Assembly (NCBI RefSeq): GCF_035609205.1
Contig: NZ_CP141184.1
Location: 2,198,501-2,262,500, forward strand
Length of the DNA stretch: 64,000 nt
Source: Hymenobacter sp. GOD-10R
GTDB taxonomy: Bacteria; Bacteroidota; Bacteroidia; Cytophagales; Hymenobacteraceae
Reading direction: 5' to 3'
This document shows, piece by piece, positions 4,007-30,748 of this stretch; positions within the stretch are counted from its first letter, which is position 1, and each line of letters opens with the position of its first letter. The position numbers and the translations under genes were made by a program. The notes beneath the pieces are model-generated. The model worked only from the letters and a program-made list of their open reading frames with translations, was not told the DNA's origin and did not search any database.

Positions 4007-4174
4007 CAGACGGTAGAGGGGGACAGAATCGTGATGTACGACGATGATACTAGGAAATGTTCGGAGCTAGGTGCGGTGCCCTGCAAGAAATGTTCCTGAC
4101 ACGCTCTGATTCGGCGAATTAAGCTAGGTCTGCGTATTTGAGCTCAGCAGCACTTACTGATTGCGCTTTACAAC

Positions 4175-6718
4175 ATGGCGAAAGATTCACCACTTCTTGA
4201 TAATAAAGAGTTTACTGGTTTTGTCCGTGTCCGCGGGGCACGAGAGCACAATCTGAAGAATGTTGACCTAGAAATTCCGCGCGACGCGTTGGTCGTGTTC
4301 ACGGGCGTATCGGGGTCGGGCAAGTCGAGCCTAGCATTCGGGACGCTATACGCGGAGGCGCAGCGGCGCTACCTGGAGTCGGTTTCGCCGTACGCGCGGC
4401 GGCTGTTTCACCAAATGGCCGTGCCCGAAGTCGATGCCATCGACGGGTTGCCGCCGGCCGTGGCCTTGCAGCAGCAGCGCGGCACGCCTACCACGCGTTC
4501 TTCTGTGGGCAGCGTCACGACGCTCTCCAACCTGGTGCGCATGCTCTACTCGCGGGCAGGCGACTACCCCGCAGGCCAGGGCATTATTTACGCCGAAGCC
4601 TTTTCGCCCAACACGCCCGAAGGCGCTTGCCCAACCTGCCACGGCCTAGGTTGCATCTACGAGGTAACCGAAAGATCCATGGTGCCCGACGACTCGCTCA
4701 CTATCCGGGAGCGGGCCATTGCGGCGTGGCCCCAAGCTTGGGGCGGTCAGAACCAGCGCGATATCCTGGTCACAATGGGCTACGACGTAGATACGCCCTG
4801 GCGCGACTTGCCCCAAAAAGACCGAGACTGGATTCTGTTCACCGATGAGCAGCCGGTTGTGCCTGTGTACCCCGGCTACTCGCCCGAGGAAACCCAGCGC
4901 GCCCTGAAGCGCAAAGAGCCGCCCAACTACATGGGCACCTTCACGAGCGCTAAGCGGCACGTGCTGCACACCTTCGCCACCACCCAAAGCCCCTTGATGA
5001 AAAAACGGGCTTTGCAGTACATGCTCAGCACCGAGTGCCCGCTGTGCCACGGCAAGCGCCTGCGGCCCGAGTCGTTGTCGGTCACGTTTGCCGGGCTCGA
5101 CATTGCTGATTTGTCGGGCCTGCCGCTGAAGCGCGTGACGGGCTTGCTGCAAGCCTACGCCGACGGCACGGCCACGAGTCGCCAAGAGCACGACGCCGCG
5201 CAATTAATTGTGAAACAGCGTATCGCGGCCGACCTCGTGGCTCGCCTCGCCGTGTTGCTCGACCTAGGCCTAGGCTACCTGTCGTTAGAGCGGAGCACGC
5301 CCACGCTGTCACCGGGCGAGTTGCAGCGCTTGCGTTTGGCCACACAGCTGTATTCCAATCTGTTTGGGGTAGTGTACGTACTCGATGAGCCCTCCGCCGG
5401 TTTGCATCCTTCCGATACGGAAGCCCTGCTGAAGGCGCTGGCAGGGTTAAAGCAGGCAGGCAATTCGCTCTTTGTCGTGGAGCATAACTTAGATGTAATT
5501 CGGCAGGCCGATTGGCTCGTGGATGTGGGGCCCGCCGCGGGCGAGCAAGGTGGCGAGGTGCTCTATAGCGGACCACCGAAAGGCCTCGCGACTATTGAAA
5601 CGTCGCAAACCCGTCGTTTCCTGTTCACCTCCGACGCTGAGCAGTCCTTGCGTCAACCGCGTACGCCTACGGGCTGGCTTCGGCTGGCTGGGGTCACGCG
5701 CAATAACCTCGAACAGCTCGACGTGGCGTTTCCGCTGGGTGTGCTCACCACCGTCACGGGTGTGTCGGGGTCGGGCAAATCGAGCCTGGTCAGCCAGGTA
5801 CTGGTGGAACTCGTGGCCGAGCAGCTAGGTCAGGAGGTGGAAGCCGAGGAGGAAGAAGCCGACCCGCTGGAGCGCACCGAGTCCGCGGAGCTAGGTGGAC
5901 AAATCGTGGCGGGCATGGAACAGATCAAGCGTCTGGTGCGCGTGGACCAAAAGCCGATTGGCCGCACGCCGCGCTCCAACATGGCGACCTACACCGGCCT
6001 CTTCGACCACGTTCGTAAGCTGTTTGCGGCTACCAAAACGGCCAAAGCGCGCCGCTACGATGCCGGTCGGTTCTCTTTCAACGTAGCCAAAGGGCGCTGC
6101 GAAAACTGCCAAGGCGAAGGCTTTGTGATGGTAGAGCTGCTGTTTCTGCCAAGCGTGTACGCCCCGTGCCCCGTCTGCCACGGCGCCCGCTACAACGCCA
6201 AAACCTTGGAAGTCACCTACCGCGACAAGAACATTGCCGAGGTGCTCGGTCTGACTGTAGATGCTGCCTGGGAGTTCTTTGCCGACGAGCCGACGATTTT
6301 GCGTCCCCTCACCGTGCTGCGCGAGGTGGGTCTAGGGTATCTGCGCCTCGGCCAGCCGGCCACCGAGCTTTCGGGCGGCGAGGCCCAGCGCATCAAGCTA
6401 GCTACCGAACTACAACGTGCCCAACGCGGCAACTCGCTCTACGTGCTCGATGAGCCCACCACCGGTCTGCACCCCTCCGATGTGGAGAAGCTGATGACGC
6501 AGCTCGACGGCCTCGTGGAAGCTGGCAACACGGTCATCGTGGTGGAGCATGATATGCGCGTGGTGGCTGGCTCCGACTGGGTGCTTGACATGGGTCCCGG
6601 CGCCGGCGACGAGGGTGGGCAGGTCGTAGCCGCTGGTTCGCCTGCCGAGGTAGCGAAGGTGAAGGCAAGCCGCACGGCACCATACCTTGCTAGGTTTCGC
6701 AGCGGCGCATCCCAGTAG
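4175..6718 (+). CDS. UvrA-family excinuclease subunit, short paralogue
   Basis: A DNA-damage-recognition ATPase of the UvrA family. Two ABC modules are visible: Walker A GVSGSGKSS at about residues 44-52 and again near 528-536; signatures LSPGELQRLRLA and LSGGEAQRIKLA; Walker B/D-loop VLDEPSAGLH and VLDEPTTGLH. Zinc-finger modules are seen as CPTCHGLGC, CPLCHGKR and the CENCQGEGF...CPVCHGAR pair. At 847 residues it is about 100 shorter than housekeeping UvrA. This fits the class II (UvrA2) paralogues, which are known to lack the UvrB-binding domain; that deletion is inferred here from length. The main uvrA is presumably elsewhere. The gene stands alone, divergent from the amidase gene. Confidence 0.88.
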   Translation: MAKDSPLLDNKEFTGFVRVRGAREHNLKNVDLEIPRDALVVFTGVSGSGKSSLAFGTLYAEAQRRYLESVSPYARRLFHQMAVPEVDAIDGLPPAVALQQQRGTPTTRSSVGSVTTLSNLVRMLYSRAGDYPAGQGIIYAEAFSPNTPEGACPTCHGLGCIYEVTERSMVPDDSLTIRERAIAAWPQAWGGQNQRDILVTMGYDVDTPWRDLPQKDRDWILFTDEQPVVPVYPGYSPEETQRALKRKEPPNYMGTFTSAKRHVLHTFATTQSPLMKKRALQYMLSTECPLCHGKRLRPESLSVTFAGLDIADLSGLPLKRVTGLLQAYADGTATSRQEHDAAQLIVKQRIAADLVARLAVLLDLGLGYLSLERSTPTLSPGELQRLRLATQLYSNLFGVVYVLDEPSAGLHPSDTEALLKALAGLKQAGNSLFVVEHNLDVIRQADWLVDVGPAAGEQGGEVLYSGPPKGLATIETSQTRRFLFTSDAEQSLRQPRTPTGWLRLAGVTRNNLEQLDVAFPLGVLTTVTGVSGSGKSSLVSQVLVELVAEQLGQEVEAEEEEADPLERTESAELGGQIVAGMEQIKRLVRVDQKPIGRTPRSNMATYTGLFDHVRKLFAATKTAKARRYDAGRFSFNVAKGRCENCQGEGFVMVELLFLPSVYAPCPVCHGARYNAKTLEVTYRDKNIAEVLGLTVDAAWEFFADEPTILRPLTVLREVGLGYLRLGQPATELSGGEAQRIKLATELQRAQRGNSLYVLDEPTTGLHPSDVEKLMTQLDGLVEAGNTVIVVEHDMRVVAGSDWVLDMGPGAGDEGGQVVAAGSPAEVAKVKASRTAPYLARFRSGASQ

Positions 6719-26502: not shown

Positions 26503-28050
26503 ATGCGCTTCAACTTCAACTTCCGCAAAAACGAATCGGTGCCGGTGGTTAACCACGAAGGCGCCGCTGCTTACCAGCTTACGCCCCAACTCGAACTGTA
26601 CGCCGCCGTGGCTACCGCCGCGCTCAGCGACCAGTTTTATGAAAAGGCCGATACGCGGCTGGCACGATTGCGCGAGTTGGTAGCGCAAAACGAGCCCTTA
26701 TTTGTAGCACAACTGGCGGTGTATGCCCGCGAAAAGCTCTACTTACGCTCGGTCCCTTTGGTGCTGACTGTGGAGCTAGCCCGCCTGCACCGCGGCGATA
26801 ATCTCGTGAGCCGCCTCGTGGCTCGTGTGGTGCAGCGCCCCGACGAAATCACGGAGTTGCTGGCTTTCTACGCCGTCGCCAATGAGCGCCAAGGCACGAA
26901 CGGCAAAGCACCCGTGAAAACCCTCAACCGCCTTTCCAAGCAGTTGCAGAAAGGCCTAGCGCTCAGCTTCAACCGCTTCGATGGCTACCAGCTCGCCAAG
27001 TACGACCGCGCTGGTCAAGTGCGTCTCCGCGACGCCTTGTTCCTGGTGCACCCCCAAGCTAAAGACGCGGCCCAACAAGCATTGTTCGACCAACTAGTGC
27101 GCGGTGAACTCGCCACGCCCTATACCTGGGAAACGGAGCTGTCGGCCCAAGGGCAATAGTCGTTTGCTAGTGCCGCGGAGCGTCAAGCGGTCTTCAAAGC
27201 CAAGTGGGAAGAGCTGATTGCCAGCGGCAAGCTAGGCTACATGGCCTTGCTACGAAACCTGCGCAACATCATCGAAGTCGATGTGTCGGCCGATGCGGTG
27301 CAGACGGTATGTGCTACGCTTGCCAACCGGGCAGCGGTGGCGCGCAGCAAGCAGTTGCCGTTCCGCTTCTTGGCGGCTTACCGCGAGGTGCTGGAGTTGA
27401 AGTTGGGGCGCGTACCCGGCGTGTTAGCGGCATTGGAAACGGCCATCGGCCACTCCGTCGCCAACTTGCGCGGCTTCGATGCTAACACCCGTGTGCTCTT
27501 GGCCTGCGACGTGTCGGGCTCCATGCAACAACCCATATCAGCGCGCAGCAAAGTGCTGCTCTATGACATCGGGCTGGTGTTGGCTATGCTCCTGCAAAGC
27601 CGCTGTCAGCATGTCGTAACGGGCATGTTTGGCGATAAATGGAAGCGCATCAGCTTGCCCACTGGGCAGGTGTTGCGCAACGTGCAGGAGATGTACCGCC
27701 GGGAAGGGGAGGTGGGCTACAGCACCAACGGCCACTTGGTCGTCTACGACTTGCGGCAGCGCCGTGAGGTAGTAGATAAGGTGATGATCTTCACCGACTG
27801 CCAGCTGTGGGACAGCACTGGTCGGGCCGGCTCGCTGGCCGCCGAGTGGCGCGAATATCGCCGCACGGTAGCGCCGCAAGCGCAGCTCTACCTCTTCGAC
27901 CTAGCCGGTCACGGCACCGCGCCGCTGCAAGTGCGTCGCGAAGATGGTGTAGCGCTGGTCGCGGGCTGGTCGGACAAAGTGTTCGACGTACTGGCCGCGC
28001 TGGAAGACGGTGGCTCCGCCCTGACGGAGATTGAAAAGGTTGAGTTCTAA
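26503..28050 (+). pseudogene. rsr: Ro60/Rsr (TROVE-VWA) protein gene with in-frame amber codon
   Basis: Ro60 is a ring-shaped protein that binds Y RNAs on its outer face and misfolded or fragmentary RNA in its central hole. The frame 26503-28050 is uninterrupted except for TAG at 27157-27159 (codon 219). Without it the product would be 515 residues, normal for bacterial Rsr. The 5' part carries the HEAT-like TROVE repeats (LYAAVATAALSDQFYEKAD, PLFVAQLAVYAREKLYLRSVP); immediately after the stop the family sequence continues (FKAKWEELIASGKLGYMALL, then RNLRNI). A VWA domain with the MIDAS motif DVSGSM at about residue 336 ends the protein. TAG ends other genes here, so suppression is not general. 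Nonsense mutation (CAG or AAG to TAG), readthrough or sequence error are the options. The Y RNA array and rtcB follow. Confidence 0.85.
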
Positions 28051-28170: not shown

Positions 28171-28313
28171 CCTACAAGGTGCCGTAAGCGGGCGCTACTT
28201 CGTGGTCCGTTTTCGACTTCACCATGTGGAGTCTCGCAGGTTCGAACCCTGCTCCCCGGCCTGAAGGCTTGGGGGATGAAAACATGCGCTTGCTGCTTGT
28301 TGTCCTTGCTAGG
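28171..28313 (+). ncRNA. Y RNA-like unit 1 (T-arm type, degenerate D side)
   Basis: Terminal helix CCTACAAGG (28171-28179) with CCTTGCTAGG (28304-28313), one bulge. The conserved GGTGCCGTA follows, then a 9-bp inner helix AGCGGGCGC (28187-28195) with GCGCTTGCT (28286-28294, two G-U pairs), and the signature TACTTCG. The apical module has a perfect T-arm GCAGG-TTCGAAC-CCTGC (28236-28252) and an acceptor-like helix TCCCC/GGGGA closed by a hairpin loop. The canonical D-arm sequence is missing. The 3' strand carries TTGTTG. The tRNA elements are permuted (T side before D side), as in YrlA-type Y RNAs. Confidence 0.78.
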
Positions 28314-28332
28314 TTGGTTGCGGAAAGGTATT

Positions 28333-28470
28333 CCGTCGGGTGTCGTAGCGGCGTGTTACTTCGGGTCGCAGGTTCGAGCCCTGCCTTTCAGGTTTGCCTG
28401 AGAGTAGCTCAGTTGGTAGAGCAGAGCGGTTTCGGTCGTGTCTTTCGCGCCGTGCTTTTTACCCCGACGG
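28333..28470 (+). ncRNA. Y RNA-like unit 2 with permuted tRNA module
   Basis: Terminal helix CCGTCGGG (28333-28340) with CCCGACGG (28463-28470), perfect. Then GGTGTCGTAG, inner helix CGGCG with CGCCG (about 28349-28353 and 28448-28452) and the signature TTACTTCG. T-arm GCAGG-TTCGAGC-CCTGC at 28368-28384. Acceptor-like helix CTTTCAGG (28385-28392) with CCTGAGAG (28397-28404), 8 bp with one G-U, closed by a TTTG tetraloop. D-arm TAGCTCAGTTGGTAGAGCA at 28405-28423. Thus T-arm, acceptor and D-arm appear in circularly permuted order, with the long stem standing where a tRNA anticodon arm would be. Confidence 0.83.
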
Positions 28471-28484
28471 ATTTCTTCTTACCT

Positions 28485-28629
28485 CACTGGGTGCCGTAGT
28501 TCAGCCATACTTCGCACTTTGATTGCCCGGGTCGCGGGTTCGAGCCCCGCCAACTGGTCCTAGCTAGGTTCAGTTGTAGCTCAGTTGGTTAGAGCAGGAT
28601 ACAGAGGCTGGGCGCTTGTTGCCCCGGTG
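28485..28629 (+). ncRNA. Y RNA-like unit 3 with permuted tRNA module
   Basis: Terminal helix CACTGGG (28485-28491) with CCCCGGTG (28622-28629). GGTGCCGTAG follows, inner helix CAGCC (28502-28506) with GGCTG (28606-28610), and the signature ATACTTCG. T-arm GCGGG-TTCGAGC-CCCGC at 28534-28550. Acceptor-like helix CAACTG (28551-28556) with CAGTTG (28571-28576), perfect 6 bp, whose 14-base loop contains CCTAGCTAGG. D-arm TAGCTCAGTTGGTTAGAGCA at 28577-28596. The 3' strand carries GCTTGTTGCCCC. It lacks any anticodon loop, so it is a tRNA mimic, not a tRNA. Confidence 0.85.
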
Positions 28630-28639
28630 AGAAAAGTAC

Positions 28640-28768
28640 CTGACAGGTGCCGTAGCAAAGTCTTACTTCGCCTTGGACGCTGGGGTCGCGGGTTCGAGTC
28701 CCGCTCATCCTTCGGGGTGGTAGCTCAGTTGGTTAGAGCACAGAGACTTGCGGTTGTTGCCCTGTCAG
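28640..28768 (+). ncRNA. Y RNA-like unit 4 with permuted tRNA module and UUCG loop
   Basis: Terminal helix CTGACAGG (28640-28647) with CCTGTCAG (28761-28768), perfect 8 bp. GGTGCCGTAG, inner helix AAGTCT (28658-28663) with AGACTT (28744-28749), signature TTACTTCG. T-arm GCGGG-TTCGAGT-CCCGC at 28688-28704. Acceptor-like helix TCATCC (28705-28710) with GGGTGG (28715-28720), 6 bp with two G-U pairs, capped by a very stable C(UUCG)G tetraloop. D-arm TAGCTCAGTTGGTTAGAGCA at 28721-28740. 3' strand GGTTGTTGCCC. This is the clearest copy of the permuted tRNA module in the array. Confidence 0.86.
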
Positions 28769-28774
28769 CTTATA

Positions 28775-28858
28775 GGAATGCCAGAAGGTGCCGTAGGGTA
28801 GTCTTACTTCGACTGAAAATCCAACGTGACTACTCGGCTGTCGCCCTTCTTACATTCC
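28775..28858 (+). ncRNA. Minimal Y RNA-like unit 5, no tRNA module
   Basis: Terminal helices GGAATG (28775-28780) with CATTCC (28853-28858) and AGAAGG (28783-28788) with CCTTCT (28845-28850). GGTGCCGTAG, inner helix GTAGTC (28798-28803) with GACTAC (28828-28833), and the signature TTACTTCG directly after it. The apical part is a short single-stranded loop in place of the tRNA module. The 3' strand GGCTGTCGCCC corresponds to TTGTTGCCC of the other units. It keeps the putative Ro60-binding stem only. Confidence 0.8.
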
Positions 28859-28865
28859 TCTCAAC

Positions 28866-28943
28866 CTAGCCGGATGCCGTAGGGCAGCGTTTCTTCGACT
28901 TTTATTCGCAAACAGACTGCTGTCCATTTGTTGCTCCGGCTAG
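28866..28943 (+). ncRNA. Minimal Y RNA-like unit 6, no tRNA module
   Basis: Terminal helix CTAGCCGG (28866-28873) with CCGGCTAG (28936-28943), perfect 8 bp. ATGCCGTAGG, inner helix GGGCAGC (28882-28888) with GCTGTCC (28919-28925, one G-U), then TTTCTTCG, the variant of the ACTTCG signature. The apical loop is short and AT-rich with no T- or D-arm. The 3' strand has ATTTGTTGCTCC. Last member of the array. Confidence 0.8.
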
Positions 28944-29281
28944 CTAGGGTTGGGCTTCGTGTAAACGCTTCATCAACATAATAGTATGGAACCAAGATTT
29001 ACGCTTAGCCCATTCGGGAGAAGAGTTCTGCGGCTTTTCGCCAAGCACTTGCACCGGTTCGCCGCGCTGAATTGCTTGGATCGATAAGAAAGTGTCAGCA
29101 GATAGTAGCAGTATCCGTTTGGAACGCCTCCTGTTTGCCAACGCTTGCTTGGTCCGACGCCCTAGGTGTTCGACCGGTATCGGTGAACAGGCTTCGTGCG
29201 GGCGTTTACAAACAGATTAGTATTTAACACAGACATCAGCAACGATACCGGTCAGGCGACTCACGCCTTCGGACCAGTGCC
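28944..29281. other. Spacer between the RNA array and rtcB
   Basis: It holds an inverted repeat at 29150-29279 (separate entry). On the minus strand a frame at 28944-29141 would encode 65 basic residues from a TTG codon; its stop touches the end of RNA unit 6. I do not recognise it and cannot support it as a gene, although it could be a remnant. The rtcB start lies at the very end of the repeat. Confidence 0.45.
29150..29279. repeat. Inverted repeat of the GGTCCGACGCC family, before rtcB
   Basis: Arms at about 29150-29186 and 29243-29279. The left arm contains GGTCCGACGCCCTAGG and TTCGACCGGTATCG; the right arm is its imperfect complement (CGATACCGGTCAGGCGA...GGACCAG). The same core is found at 39871-39992, 43185-43323 and 44755-44878, so this is one dispersed family. 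It ends two bases before the rtcB GTG start and may influence translation or RNA processing. Confidence 0.72.
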
Positions 29282-30748
29282 GTGCGGAAACACAAGGTCG
29301 TTGGTTTACCAAAAACCAACGCCAAAATAGCAAACCAGATCATGGCTCAACAACTACGTGGCAACGACCTCCGCCAACTCGGATTTCCGGAAGGGCGTGC
29401 CATTGGCTTGGCGCTGGCTCAATTGCAGCGCAAGCACTTAAAAAAACTCTCCCACACGGAGCAGCTGAATCTGCTCCAAACCTTACTACATAGCCCCAAA
29501 GAGTACTTGACCGACCTCGACTGGAGCCACACGGCCGCCGCGCTGCTGCCGCCACCCAGCCGCCATATTGCTCTGGCCGAGCGCAAGGAATACGCCGTGT
29601 TCGGCCCCGAGTACATCGACCAAGGTGCCATTCACCAGATGGAAACGGCCATGAAGCTGCCCATCACGGTCGCCGGCGCCCTCATGCCCGACGCTCACCA
29701 CGGCTACGGCTTGCCTATCGGCGGCGTACTGGCCACAGACAACGCTGTGATTCCTTACGCCGTGGGCGTGGACATCGGGTGCCGGATGGCGCTGTCGGTG
29801 TACGCGCTGCCGCCCAAACACTTGGAGCAGCGCGTACAGGAGTTGCGCAAGATCTTGCTCGACAACACCAAGTTCGGCAACCGCGACGTGTTCCGCTACG
29901 GCCAAAAGCTAGATCACGCCGTGTTGGAGCGCGATGAGTTCTTGAGCATCCCTTTCCTTCGCAACAAGCAGGAAACGGCGGCCGCACAGATCGGCACTTC
30001 GGGTGGCGGCAACCACTTTGTGGAGTTCGGCGTGGTCGACATCACCGATCCGCAAAACGAGCTAGGCGTACCGGTGGGCCAATACCTAGGTCTGCTCTCG
30101 CACTCCGGCTCCCGCGGCCTCGGCGCGAGCATCGCCAACCACTACACCAAGCTGGCGAAAGACGTTTGCCAACTGCCCGCCGAAGCCCAACACCTAGCTT
30201 GGCTTTCGCTCGACACGGAAGCGGGGCAGGAGTACTGGGCTGCCATGAATTTGGCCGGTGACTACGCCTCCGCCTGTCACCACCAGATTCACCAACGCAT
30301 TGCCAAAGCGTTGGGCGAACGGCCCCTAGGAAAAGTGGAAAACCACCACAACTTCGCCTGGAAGGAACGCCTAGCTGATGGTCGCAACGTGGTGGTGCAC
30401 CGCAAGGGCGCTACGCCGGCCGGCGCGGGGGTGCTCGGCATCATTCCCGGCTCGATGACGGCTCCCGGCTTCATCGTGCGCGGGCGAGGCGAAGCGACGT
30501 CGCTAGCTTCGGCCTCGCACGGCGCTGGGCGGGCCATGTCGCGGACGCGGGCCAAGCAGGAGCTAGGCGAAGCCGAAGTGCGCCAGTACCTAGCCGACGC
30601 GGGCGTGTCGCTCATCGGTGGCGGCGTGGACGAAGCGCCCCAGGCTTACAAGGACATTTTCGCCGTGATGCGCAGCCAGCAGGAGCTCGTGGACGTGCTC
30701 GGCACGTTCACCCCGCGCATCGTGCGGATGGAAGGGGCTACCACGTGA
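29282..30748 (+). CDS. rtcB: RNA-splicing ligase RtcB
   Basis: Joins RNA ends bearing 2',3'-cyclic phosphate (or 3'-phosphate) to 5'-OH ends using GTP and manganese; used for tRNA and rRNA repair. The 488-residue product shows the family motifs: PDAHHGYGLPIGG (about 136-148), the metal-binding VGVDIGCRM with D164 and C167, GTSGGGNHFVEF, LSHSGSRG, RKGATPAGAG with IPGSM, and ASHGAGRAMSR, where H413 should be the guanylylated histidine. The GTG at 29282 is the longest start; an ATG at 29342 is an alternative. No RtcA cyclase or RtcR regulator is adjacent, unlike enterobacterial rsr-yrl-rtcBA loci. Confidence 0.93.
   Translation: MRKHKVVGLPKTNAKIANQIMAQQLRGNDLRQLGFPEGRAIGLALAQLQRKHLKKLSHTEQLNLLQTLLHSPKEYLTDLDWSHTAAALLPPPSRHIALAERKEYAVFGPEYIDQGAIHQMETAMKLPITVAGALMPDAHHGYGLPIGGVLATDNAVIPYAVGVDIGCRMALSVYALPPKHLEQRVQELRKILLDNTKFGNRDVFRYGQKLDHAVLERDEFLSIPFLRNKQETAAAQIGTSGGGNHFVEFGVVDITDPQNELGVPVGQYLGLLSHSGSRGLGASIANHYTKLAKDVCQLPAEAQHLAWLSLDTEAGQEYWAAMNLAGDYASACHHQIHQRIAKALGERPLGKVENHHNFAWKERLADGRNVVVHRKGATPAGAGVLGIIPGSMTAPGFIVRGRGEATSLASASHGAGRAMSRTRAKQELGEAEVRQYLADAGVSLIGGGVDEAPQAYKDIFAVMRSQQELVDVLGTFTPRIVRMEGATT

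Follow-up and report, generated by a model that had tools for sequence, protein, structure and literature searches.

Several Y RNAs per species are already known, and Deinococcus has few of them per locus. A criterion for such RNAs, reportedly set out by Chen in 2014, is that one or more of those in a species have a permuted tRNA-like domain. Four described systems come closest to the locus analysed here (PMC8394870, PMC7790460 and PMC12409363 are drawn on in part throughout). YrlA (Rfam RF02553) lies beside Ro60/Rsr and rtcB and combines a long closing stem with a permuted T arm, acceptor and D arm. Deinococcus encodes Y RNAs adjacent to its Ro60 ortholog (PMC8394870). The Salmonella rsr-yrlBA-rtcBA operon brings Ro60, Y RNAs and RtcB together and has a link to cut tRNAs, and competitive inhibition of an anticodon nuclease has been named as a possible role of the YrlA tRNA-like domain (PMC7790460). 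Phage-borne tRNAs that escape host tRNA nucleases are likewise an RNA answer to such enzymes (PMC12409363).

Here we describe a locus of Hymenobacter sp. GOD-10R (genome size 7.5 Mb) in which six structured units fill positions 28171-28944 of the window, i.e. of the whole stretch of 64,000 nucleotides that was analysed. The Ro60 gene lies upstream of the array and rtcB lies downstream. Like other Y RNAs, the units are encoded beside Ro60/Rsr, the gene ending at 28050 and the array starting at 28171. The original prediction had overlooked the permuted tRNA-like modules and the anticodon-like hairpins, as well as modules of Leu/Ser type in relatives and an in-frame stop in Ro60.

Architecture of the six-unit array

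The original prediction had placed six units of one plan between Ro60 and rtcB, and the 5' core, the folds and a covariance model all agree with it. A motif search puts the starts of the 5' core at 28177, 28338, 28489, 28645, 28786 and 28872. The core reads GGTGCCGTAG exactly in U3-U5, while U1, U2 and U6 carry the variants GTGCCGTAA, GTGTCGTAG and ATGCCGTAG, respectively. The 3' strand, which had been described as TTGTTGC-like, has exactly this sequence in U3, U4 and U6, and it is TTGTTGTCC in U1, TTTTTACC in U2 and CTGTCGCC in U5. The ACTTCG signature that had been ascribed to every unit is found in five of them, whereas the version in U6 is TTCTTCG. The proposed division into long and short units corresponds to U1-U4 and U5-U6. 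ViennaRNA predicts a long closing stem for each of the six (Table 1).

The helices had also been said to differ between units while pairing is kept, and this turned out to be correct. When all 5' and 3' arms were paired with each other in a 6x6 comparison, a unit's own partner came top in 6/6 rows, with a narrow win (13 vs 12.8) for U1, whose helix has a bulge. Among relatives, there were 111 both-side changes compared to 27.3 ± 4.4 in shuffled and 15-31 in slid alignments; helix 1 is favoured in this count because the terminal helix had been used to pick the unit borders. At 46% of 510 motif sites (101 loci), the terminal helix scored 20 or more, compared to 4.7% when the region was taken from another genome. 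A duplex-energy test separated only weakly and was superseded by the cross-pairing and terminal-helix tests.

The covariance model, R1, was built of 27 third-type units, 26 of which come from named Hymenobacter and one is the window's own U3. In the window, R1 recovers all six units with 34-141 bits (U3 by construction) and gives no other match up to E=1. Genome-wide, its only matches are again these six units, 150 of 4064 first-look candidates having been scored. R1 and the covariation together describe a long closing stem, paired ends and conserved internal strands in all six units, as in other Y RNAs. Two further alignments contain the window together with 26 of 30 third-type units (A2) and with 11 of 16 sixth-type units (A3), the rest having been dropped for wrong borders or lengths. 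Promoter-like matches are present near the array when two mismatches are allowed, but they carry no information.

Table 1. Features of the locus in window coordinates
Feature	Position	Strand	Support
Ro60 (TROVE + vWA) gene, split by in-frame TAG 27157-27159 into 218 + 296 codons	26503..28050	+	Pfam
U1, predicted long Y RNA; T arm 28235-28251, acceptor-like hairpin, no D arm	28171..28313	+	R1 50.7 bits
U2, predicted long Y RNA; T arm 28367-28383, acceptor hairpin, D arm 28405-28422; no anticodon-like hairpin	28331..28472	+	R1 62.9 bits; YrlA 31.6 bits (sub-gathering)
U3, predicted long Y RNA; anticodon-like hairpin, T arm 28534-28550, acceptor hairpin, D arm 28577-28595	28482..28632	+	R1 140.5 bits (U3 in model); YrlA 34.0 bits
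U3 anticodon-like hairpin GCA-CTTTGAT-TGC, anticodon UUG	28514..28526	+	Stem predicted unprompted by RNAalifold on A2
U4, predicted long Y RNA; T arm 28687-28703, acceptor hairpin, D arm 28721-28739	28638..28770	+	R1 88.7 bits; YrlA 43.9 bits
U4 possible hairpin GC-CTTGGAC-GC, ambiguous	28670-28680	+	U4 type without 7-nt loop preference
U5, predicted short Y RNA; loop CTGAAAA 28813-28819 identical to tRNA-Phe(GAA) anticodon loop, closing stem 2 bp only	28779..28854	+	R1 34.2 bits
U5 outer helix AGGAATG/CATTCCT	28774-28859	+	Fold prediction
U6, predicted short Y RNA	28865..28944	+	R1 42.3 bits; alignment A3
U6 anticodon-like hairpin CGA-CTTTTAT-TCG, anticodon UUU	28896..28908	+	Hairpin scan
RtcB RNA ligase gene, ORF intact	29342..30748	+	Pfam RtcB 9.2e-84

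tRNA-like bodies

In U2-U4, a variable loop is followed by a T arm, an acceptor capped with 4-12 nt of loop and a D arm, which is the order of a permuted tRNA body. The permuted tRNA-like domain is present in these three units and partial in U1, where the T arm is present and the D arm is missing; U5 and U6 have no tRNA body. In an Rfam scan of the window, no unit reaches the RF02553 gathering threshold of 69 bits, the best scores being those of U4, U3 and U2. R1, in turn, matches a Rhizobium etli unit (L353) at 43.9 bits, and Rfam scores that unit as YrlA with 98.4 bits. Adjacency to Ro60, the stem plan and the YrlA-like domain of U2-U4 bear out the proposed Y RNA-like identity, and, judged by their sequence, the units belong to the YrlA kind of bacterial Y RNA.

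The T and D arms are near tRNA sequence, as they would be in decayed or permuted tRNA genes that have no Y RNA function. We regard such an origin as exceedingly improbable. Decayed tRNA genes, already raised as an alternative in the original prediction, explain the array worse because ARAGORN finds zero tRNA genes in it, the arm order is permuted and the helices covary. The shared Y stem and the linkage to Ro60 also speak against them. A complete cloverleaf with a free acceptor end is not what the units form, the acceptor being closed by a short loop and the anticodon stem having 2-3 bp. We also considered permuted tRNA genes that are spliced into working tRNAs and rejected them, as the anticodon stems are too short and the acceptor is shut by a short loop.

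Class II-like units occur in relatives, 20 with a Leu-type and 16 with a Ser-type D arm, and the window array has no Leu/Ser-type unit. A long variable-arm hairpin accompanies 25/36 of the Leu/Ser-type units compared to 8/173 of class I, in counts that ignore relatedness. Six loci (L205, L209 and L212-L215) contain Y RNAs that resemble pieces of tRNA-Leu permuted inside the D loop, in the order D-loop end, long hairpin, T arm, acceptor and D-stem start. In Brevundimonas phage Kikimora, a tRNA-Ser annotated by the depositor (L355:2766-2840) lies inside an 86-bit match of the Y RNA model (2764-2903), one of four R1 matches there, and is likely a mislabelled Y RNA.

An adaptor set, too, would be expected to have several distinct modules in one array, such as the Leu/Ser-type bodies of relatives. 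In such a set, every Y RNA would link Ro60 to a tRNA-binding partner of its own for the purpose of RNA decay or quality control. The RYPER model, in which a Deinococcus Y RNA tethers Rsr to PNPase (PMC8394870, PMC7790460), is a precedent. Tethering to PNPase alone, however, does not call for anticodon hairpins or for many anticodons at one place, both of which are described below. We consider an adaptor set possible, if on the unlikely side.

Anticodon-like hairpins

The window itself contains zero exact anticodon hairpins of at least 3 bp. Its U3 loop (UUG) is one mismatch away from the loop of the host tRNA-Gln(UUG), and its U6 loop (UUU) is one mismatch away from that of the host tRNA-Lys(UUU). 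The exact Phe loop of U5 has a 2-bp stem and an alternative fold exists. Within the window, U1 and U2 are without an anticodon-like hairpin and the U4 candidate is ambiguous. In the near relative H. cavernae (L040/L222), the anticodons are UCG in U3 and UCU in U6.

A comparison with host tRNAs was carried out across the family. The host tRNAs found by ARAGORN (39 distinct) supplied 38 distinct anticodon loops, Ala-UGC and Ile-GAU being absent from the set. At offsets 0-4 after CTTCG, 120 exact host anticodon loops were found at the 510 sites, and none of 500 shuffled-loop controls was as high (mean 7.2, max 43). The main exact loops are those of Lys-UUU, Asp-GUC, Phe-GAA, Asn-GUU and, doubtfully, Trp-CCA. 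The Trp-type loop CTCCAAA has 13 exact occurrences at offset 0, yet it is the best hairpin loop (stem of at least 2) in only 5 of the 32 units of cluster C4. ATGGGGT at offset 9 (25 matches) was left out of the count, as it belongs to the variable-loop strand. A set of named Hymenobacter loci, whose species are largely those already counted among the 510 sites, has 69 exact loops in 279 sites (control 3.8, max 19). Beside Ro60, exact hairpins of at least 3 bp number 56 in 31/47 Hymenobacter loci (control mean 7.3, max 26), whereas the 2-kb background upstream of Ro60 has 32 in 25/80 loci, within the control range (19.5, max 40).

A second test, independent of any tRNA list and giving no bonus for U33, shows that a 7-nt loop with a stem of at least 3 is present at 316/510 sites compared to 165 after shuffling, and that other loop lengths reach 106-211. 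The unit types are defined by clusters that we made by similarity, and the loci are related. In the U3 type (three clusters), 88/97 units have such a hairpin, the stem being 3 bp long in 86/88, and U33 is found in 81/88, A37 in 78/88 and an exact host anticodon loop in 38/88. RNAalifold on A2 shows this stem changing from A-U to G-C on both sides in 5/27. The U6 type has stems of 3-5 bp, GUC in 27/39 loci and U33 in 37/39, with A37 in only 26/39. The U5-type hairpin is ambiguous because a 7-nt loop with a stem of at least 3 occurs in 1/19 and a hairpin with a 4-nt loop in 15/19. The U4 type shows no preference, with 7-nt loops in 55/80 vs 59 at 5 nt and 62 at 10 nt.

Cluster C2 (U3 type, one unit per locus, 47 loci) is the cleanest set for comparing loop positions. 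U33 is kept in 44/47 and A37 in 47/47, and there are 8 anticodons with at least 19 anticodon changes on the Ro60 tree; an earlier count of anticodon swaps had pooled three clusters and used a single unit at each of the 10/78 loci with more than one. Positions 34, 35 and 36 change 15, 9 and 10 times, positions 33 and 37 change 3 and 0 times, and positions 32 and 38 change too, 9 and 11 times. At every position, the number of changes is about that obtained with shuffled labels (15 vs 17.6 at position 34, 3 vs 3.0 at position 33). Hence, the changes mainly reflect letter frequencies; there is little tree signal in the anticodon, and the positions differ in how variable they are.

Conserved U33 and A37 flanking variable positions 34-36 in the U3 type, together with the weak tree signal of the anticodon, would suit a purely structural U-turn, a 7-nt loop serving as a fold for Ro60 or for a modification enzyme while the anticodon identity drifts neutrally. 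This explanation is at odds with the 38/88 U3-type loops that are exact host anticodon loops. It is also at odds with the association of G at position 36 with T32/T38 in 20/24 vs 3/55 (U3 type), a combination found in the host tRNA-Gln and tRNA-His loops, from which the other host G36 loops differ. We judge a structural U-turn unlikely.

Ro60, RtcB and neighbouring genes

Pfam TROVE matches both pieces of the interrupted Ro60, the only Ro60 found in this genome, and vWA_Ro60 matches the second piece. The TAG is either recent or a sequencing error, since identity to an intact relative is 94% and 93% on its two sides. A second genome of the family (G125, locus L105) also has an in-frame TAG, inside the N-terminal Ro60 match. 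Two loci of the same genus, L349 (about 4145-4508) and L350 (about 6169-6535, minus strand), have kept the array and rtcB next to a Ro60 with a large internal deletion, and some units in both look decayed. Counting the window, a broken Ro60 with the array and rtcB retained is thus seen at three loci.

RtcB is adjacent to the array, as in a repair operon, whereas the RtcR family and the RNA cyclase family of RtcA have no match in this genome. The adjacency of rtcB might suggest that the Y RNAs are sensors or substrates, i.e. that the activity of tRNA nucleases is signalled by their cut loops, or that RtcB reseals these loops as part of the repair system. Also in favour, Salmonella RtcR binds tRNA 5' halves with a cyclic phosphate; against it, in the part of the same source drawn on here, YrlA fragments went undetected in Salmonella (PMC7790460). 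With this and the missing RtcR and RtcA families on the other side, we find a sensor or substrate role very unlikely.

Other genes were seen at related loci. An ORF cluster has 36 members in 35/101 stretches; the one member checked, L048:2078-2920, is a microbial-type PARG (PF10021, TIGR02452) located between Ro60 and the array. At five loci with no rtcB seen in the stretch, the array is followed by an ORF of a single cluster, and the one checked, L038:2702-4078, is a Hen1 RNA-repair methyltransferase. In L082, L105 and L131, the last motif sites are about 1.5-1.7 kb away from the rest of the array.

Distribution in the family and beyond

A TROVE gene is present in 103/204 genomes of the family. 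The strict core pattern occurs in 102/103 genomes with Ro60 and in 5/101 without it; two of these five (G038 and G054) are the cases described above, with arrays beside rtcB and a large internal deletion in Ro60, and three have single sites. Loci were fetched from 100 of the 102 other Ro60-containing genomes (G101 and G130 were left out), and all 100 have motif sites, with rtcB within the stretch in 80. With the window included, the 101 loci hold 2-8 motif sites (mean 5.05), some of which may be false, and 1-8 sites whose terminal helix scores 16 or more. Multi-unit Y RNA arrays are normal in the family, and a six-member array is nothing special to this genome. A covariance-model search, as envisaged by the original prediction, recovered the six window units and gave matches in other Bacteroidota.

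Outside the family, 28 named loci of other Bacteroidota have 2-7 motif sites each, and plasmid loci of Rhizobium, Shinella and Novosphingobium have 3-4. In a sample of the phylum, Ro60 was found in 28/395 Bacteroidota genomes, four of them of the window's own genus, and 18/20 stretches fetched from outside the family have motif sites. R1 at E<=0.01 gives 63 matches in 27/31 stretches, from Bacteroidota, Rhizobium, Shinella, Methylosinus, Novosphingobium, Deinococcus and a Brevundimonas phage, and zero matches in the Allomeiothermus, Streptomyces, Pseudomonas Leaf58 and L218 stretches.

In other Bacteroidota, exact anticodon hairpins of at least 3 bp number 24 in 12/28 loci, a weak excess, as the count is just above the control maximum (8.6, max 22) and the number of loci is within the control range (7.4, max 17). 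Exact loops at the signature are within the control range in other Bacteroidota (7 in 88 sites, max 11), in the phylum sample (4 in 61 sites, max 5) and in Rufibacter/Pontibacter (1 in 22 sites, control mean 0.26, max 3). In viral contigs, motif sites are present in 20/49 Ro60 loci, with 2 exact loops in 28 sites (control mean 0.47, max 4).

In Proteobacteria and Deinococcus, 7/8 plasmid loci, hand-chosen from searches with 77 and 82 matching records and including two that are near identical (R. etli and Kim5), contain 8 exact hairpins (control 0.3, max 5). Allomeiothermus and Streptomyces were left out of this set, and haloarchaeal and most Rhizobium records are outside the sample. The hairpins were sought downstream of Ro60 and, in Deinococcus, upstream of it. 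Examples are Asn in Shinella, Gly in D. gobiensis and Lys in Pseudomonas Leaf58, where the exact hairpin is present though R1 gives no match. Rhizobium NLR16a has an Asp hairpin at the same place as the Asn hairpin of Shinella, with the stem exchanged. Among the eight loci, Novosphingobium has no exact hairpin.

Discussion

The reading that we favour, tentatively and at somewhat less than even chances, is that Ro60 holds Y RNA decoys that draw tRNA-cutting or tRNA-handling enzymes off real tRNAs, with RtcB encoded alongside. The six predicted Y RNA genes would be transcribed, and their products would bind Ro60 via the shared stem. The ends of the units, which by sequence and comparison imitate different parts of tRNAs, would compete with tRNAs for enzymes that cut or handle them, and RtcB may reseal the cut decoys or tRNAs. 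The features consistent with this are the shared stem, the permuted body of U2-U4 and the 7-nt loop that obeys anticodon-loop rules in the U3 and U6 types. To these, the relatives add exact anticodon loops and Leu/Ser-type bodies, anticodons that differ at one place, and linkage to Ro60 and mostly to rtcB. Among described nucleases, AriB has targets that include Lys(UUU) and Asn(GUU) (PMC12409363).

Several observations count against decoys. The window's hairpins are near matches only and have short stems, its Ro60 is interrupted, and A37 is kept in the U6 type at the rate given above. The anticodon has a weak tree signal, and the loop counts of Rufibacter/Pontibacter and of other Bacteroidota are within control. 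A loop kept merely as a U-turn would likewise retain U33 and A37. Furthermore, Salmonella YrlA is not cut by its anticodon nuclease, as stated in the cited part of PMC7790460.

A wider form of the decoy reading is conceivable, which we hold to be doubtful. Ro60 would display a library of tRNA impostors, composed of class I, Leu and Ser permuted bodies and of hairpins with the anticodons of many isoacceptors. The anticodons would turn over in an arms race against nucleases that cut there, and RtcB or a Hen1-type enzyme would repair what is cut nonetheless, across Bacteroidota, Proteobacteria and Deinococcus.

If the hairpins at a fixed place do imitate tRNAs with differing anticodons, the tRNAs imitated should tell which tRNA enzymes are met. 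The tRNA-mimic reading would also supply a reason for having several Y RNAs per locus, and Hymenobacter strains are cultures in which tRNA mimicry by Y RNAs could be tested. Among the matches listed in our literature search, no title or abstract opening mentions bacterial Y RNAs with anticodon hairpins or with bodies of Leu/Ser type; a prior mention may exist in the main papers on Y RNAs, which lie outside this scope. As far as the literature covered shows, the diversified tRNA-mimic ends of Y RNAs are new.

In comparison to YrlA, the window's units score 31.6-43.9 bits against a gathering threshold of 69, and they differ in their number per locus, in the anticodon-like hairpins, in the Leu/Ser-type bodies of relatives and in the presence of short units without a tRNA body. 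The role described for the Deinococcus Y RNA, in the part of PMC8394870 used here, is that of tethering Rsr to PNPase. The Salmonella operon, going by its name, has yrlB and yrlA where the window has six Y RNAs, and its RtcR and RtcA have no family counterpart here (PMC7790460). Finally, the RNAs with which phages escape tRNA nucleases are tRNAs (PMC12409363), whereas the units of the window have a closed acceptor end.
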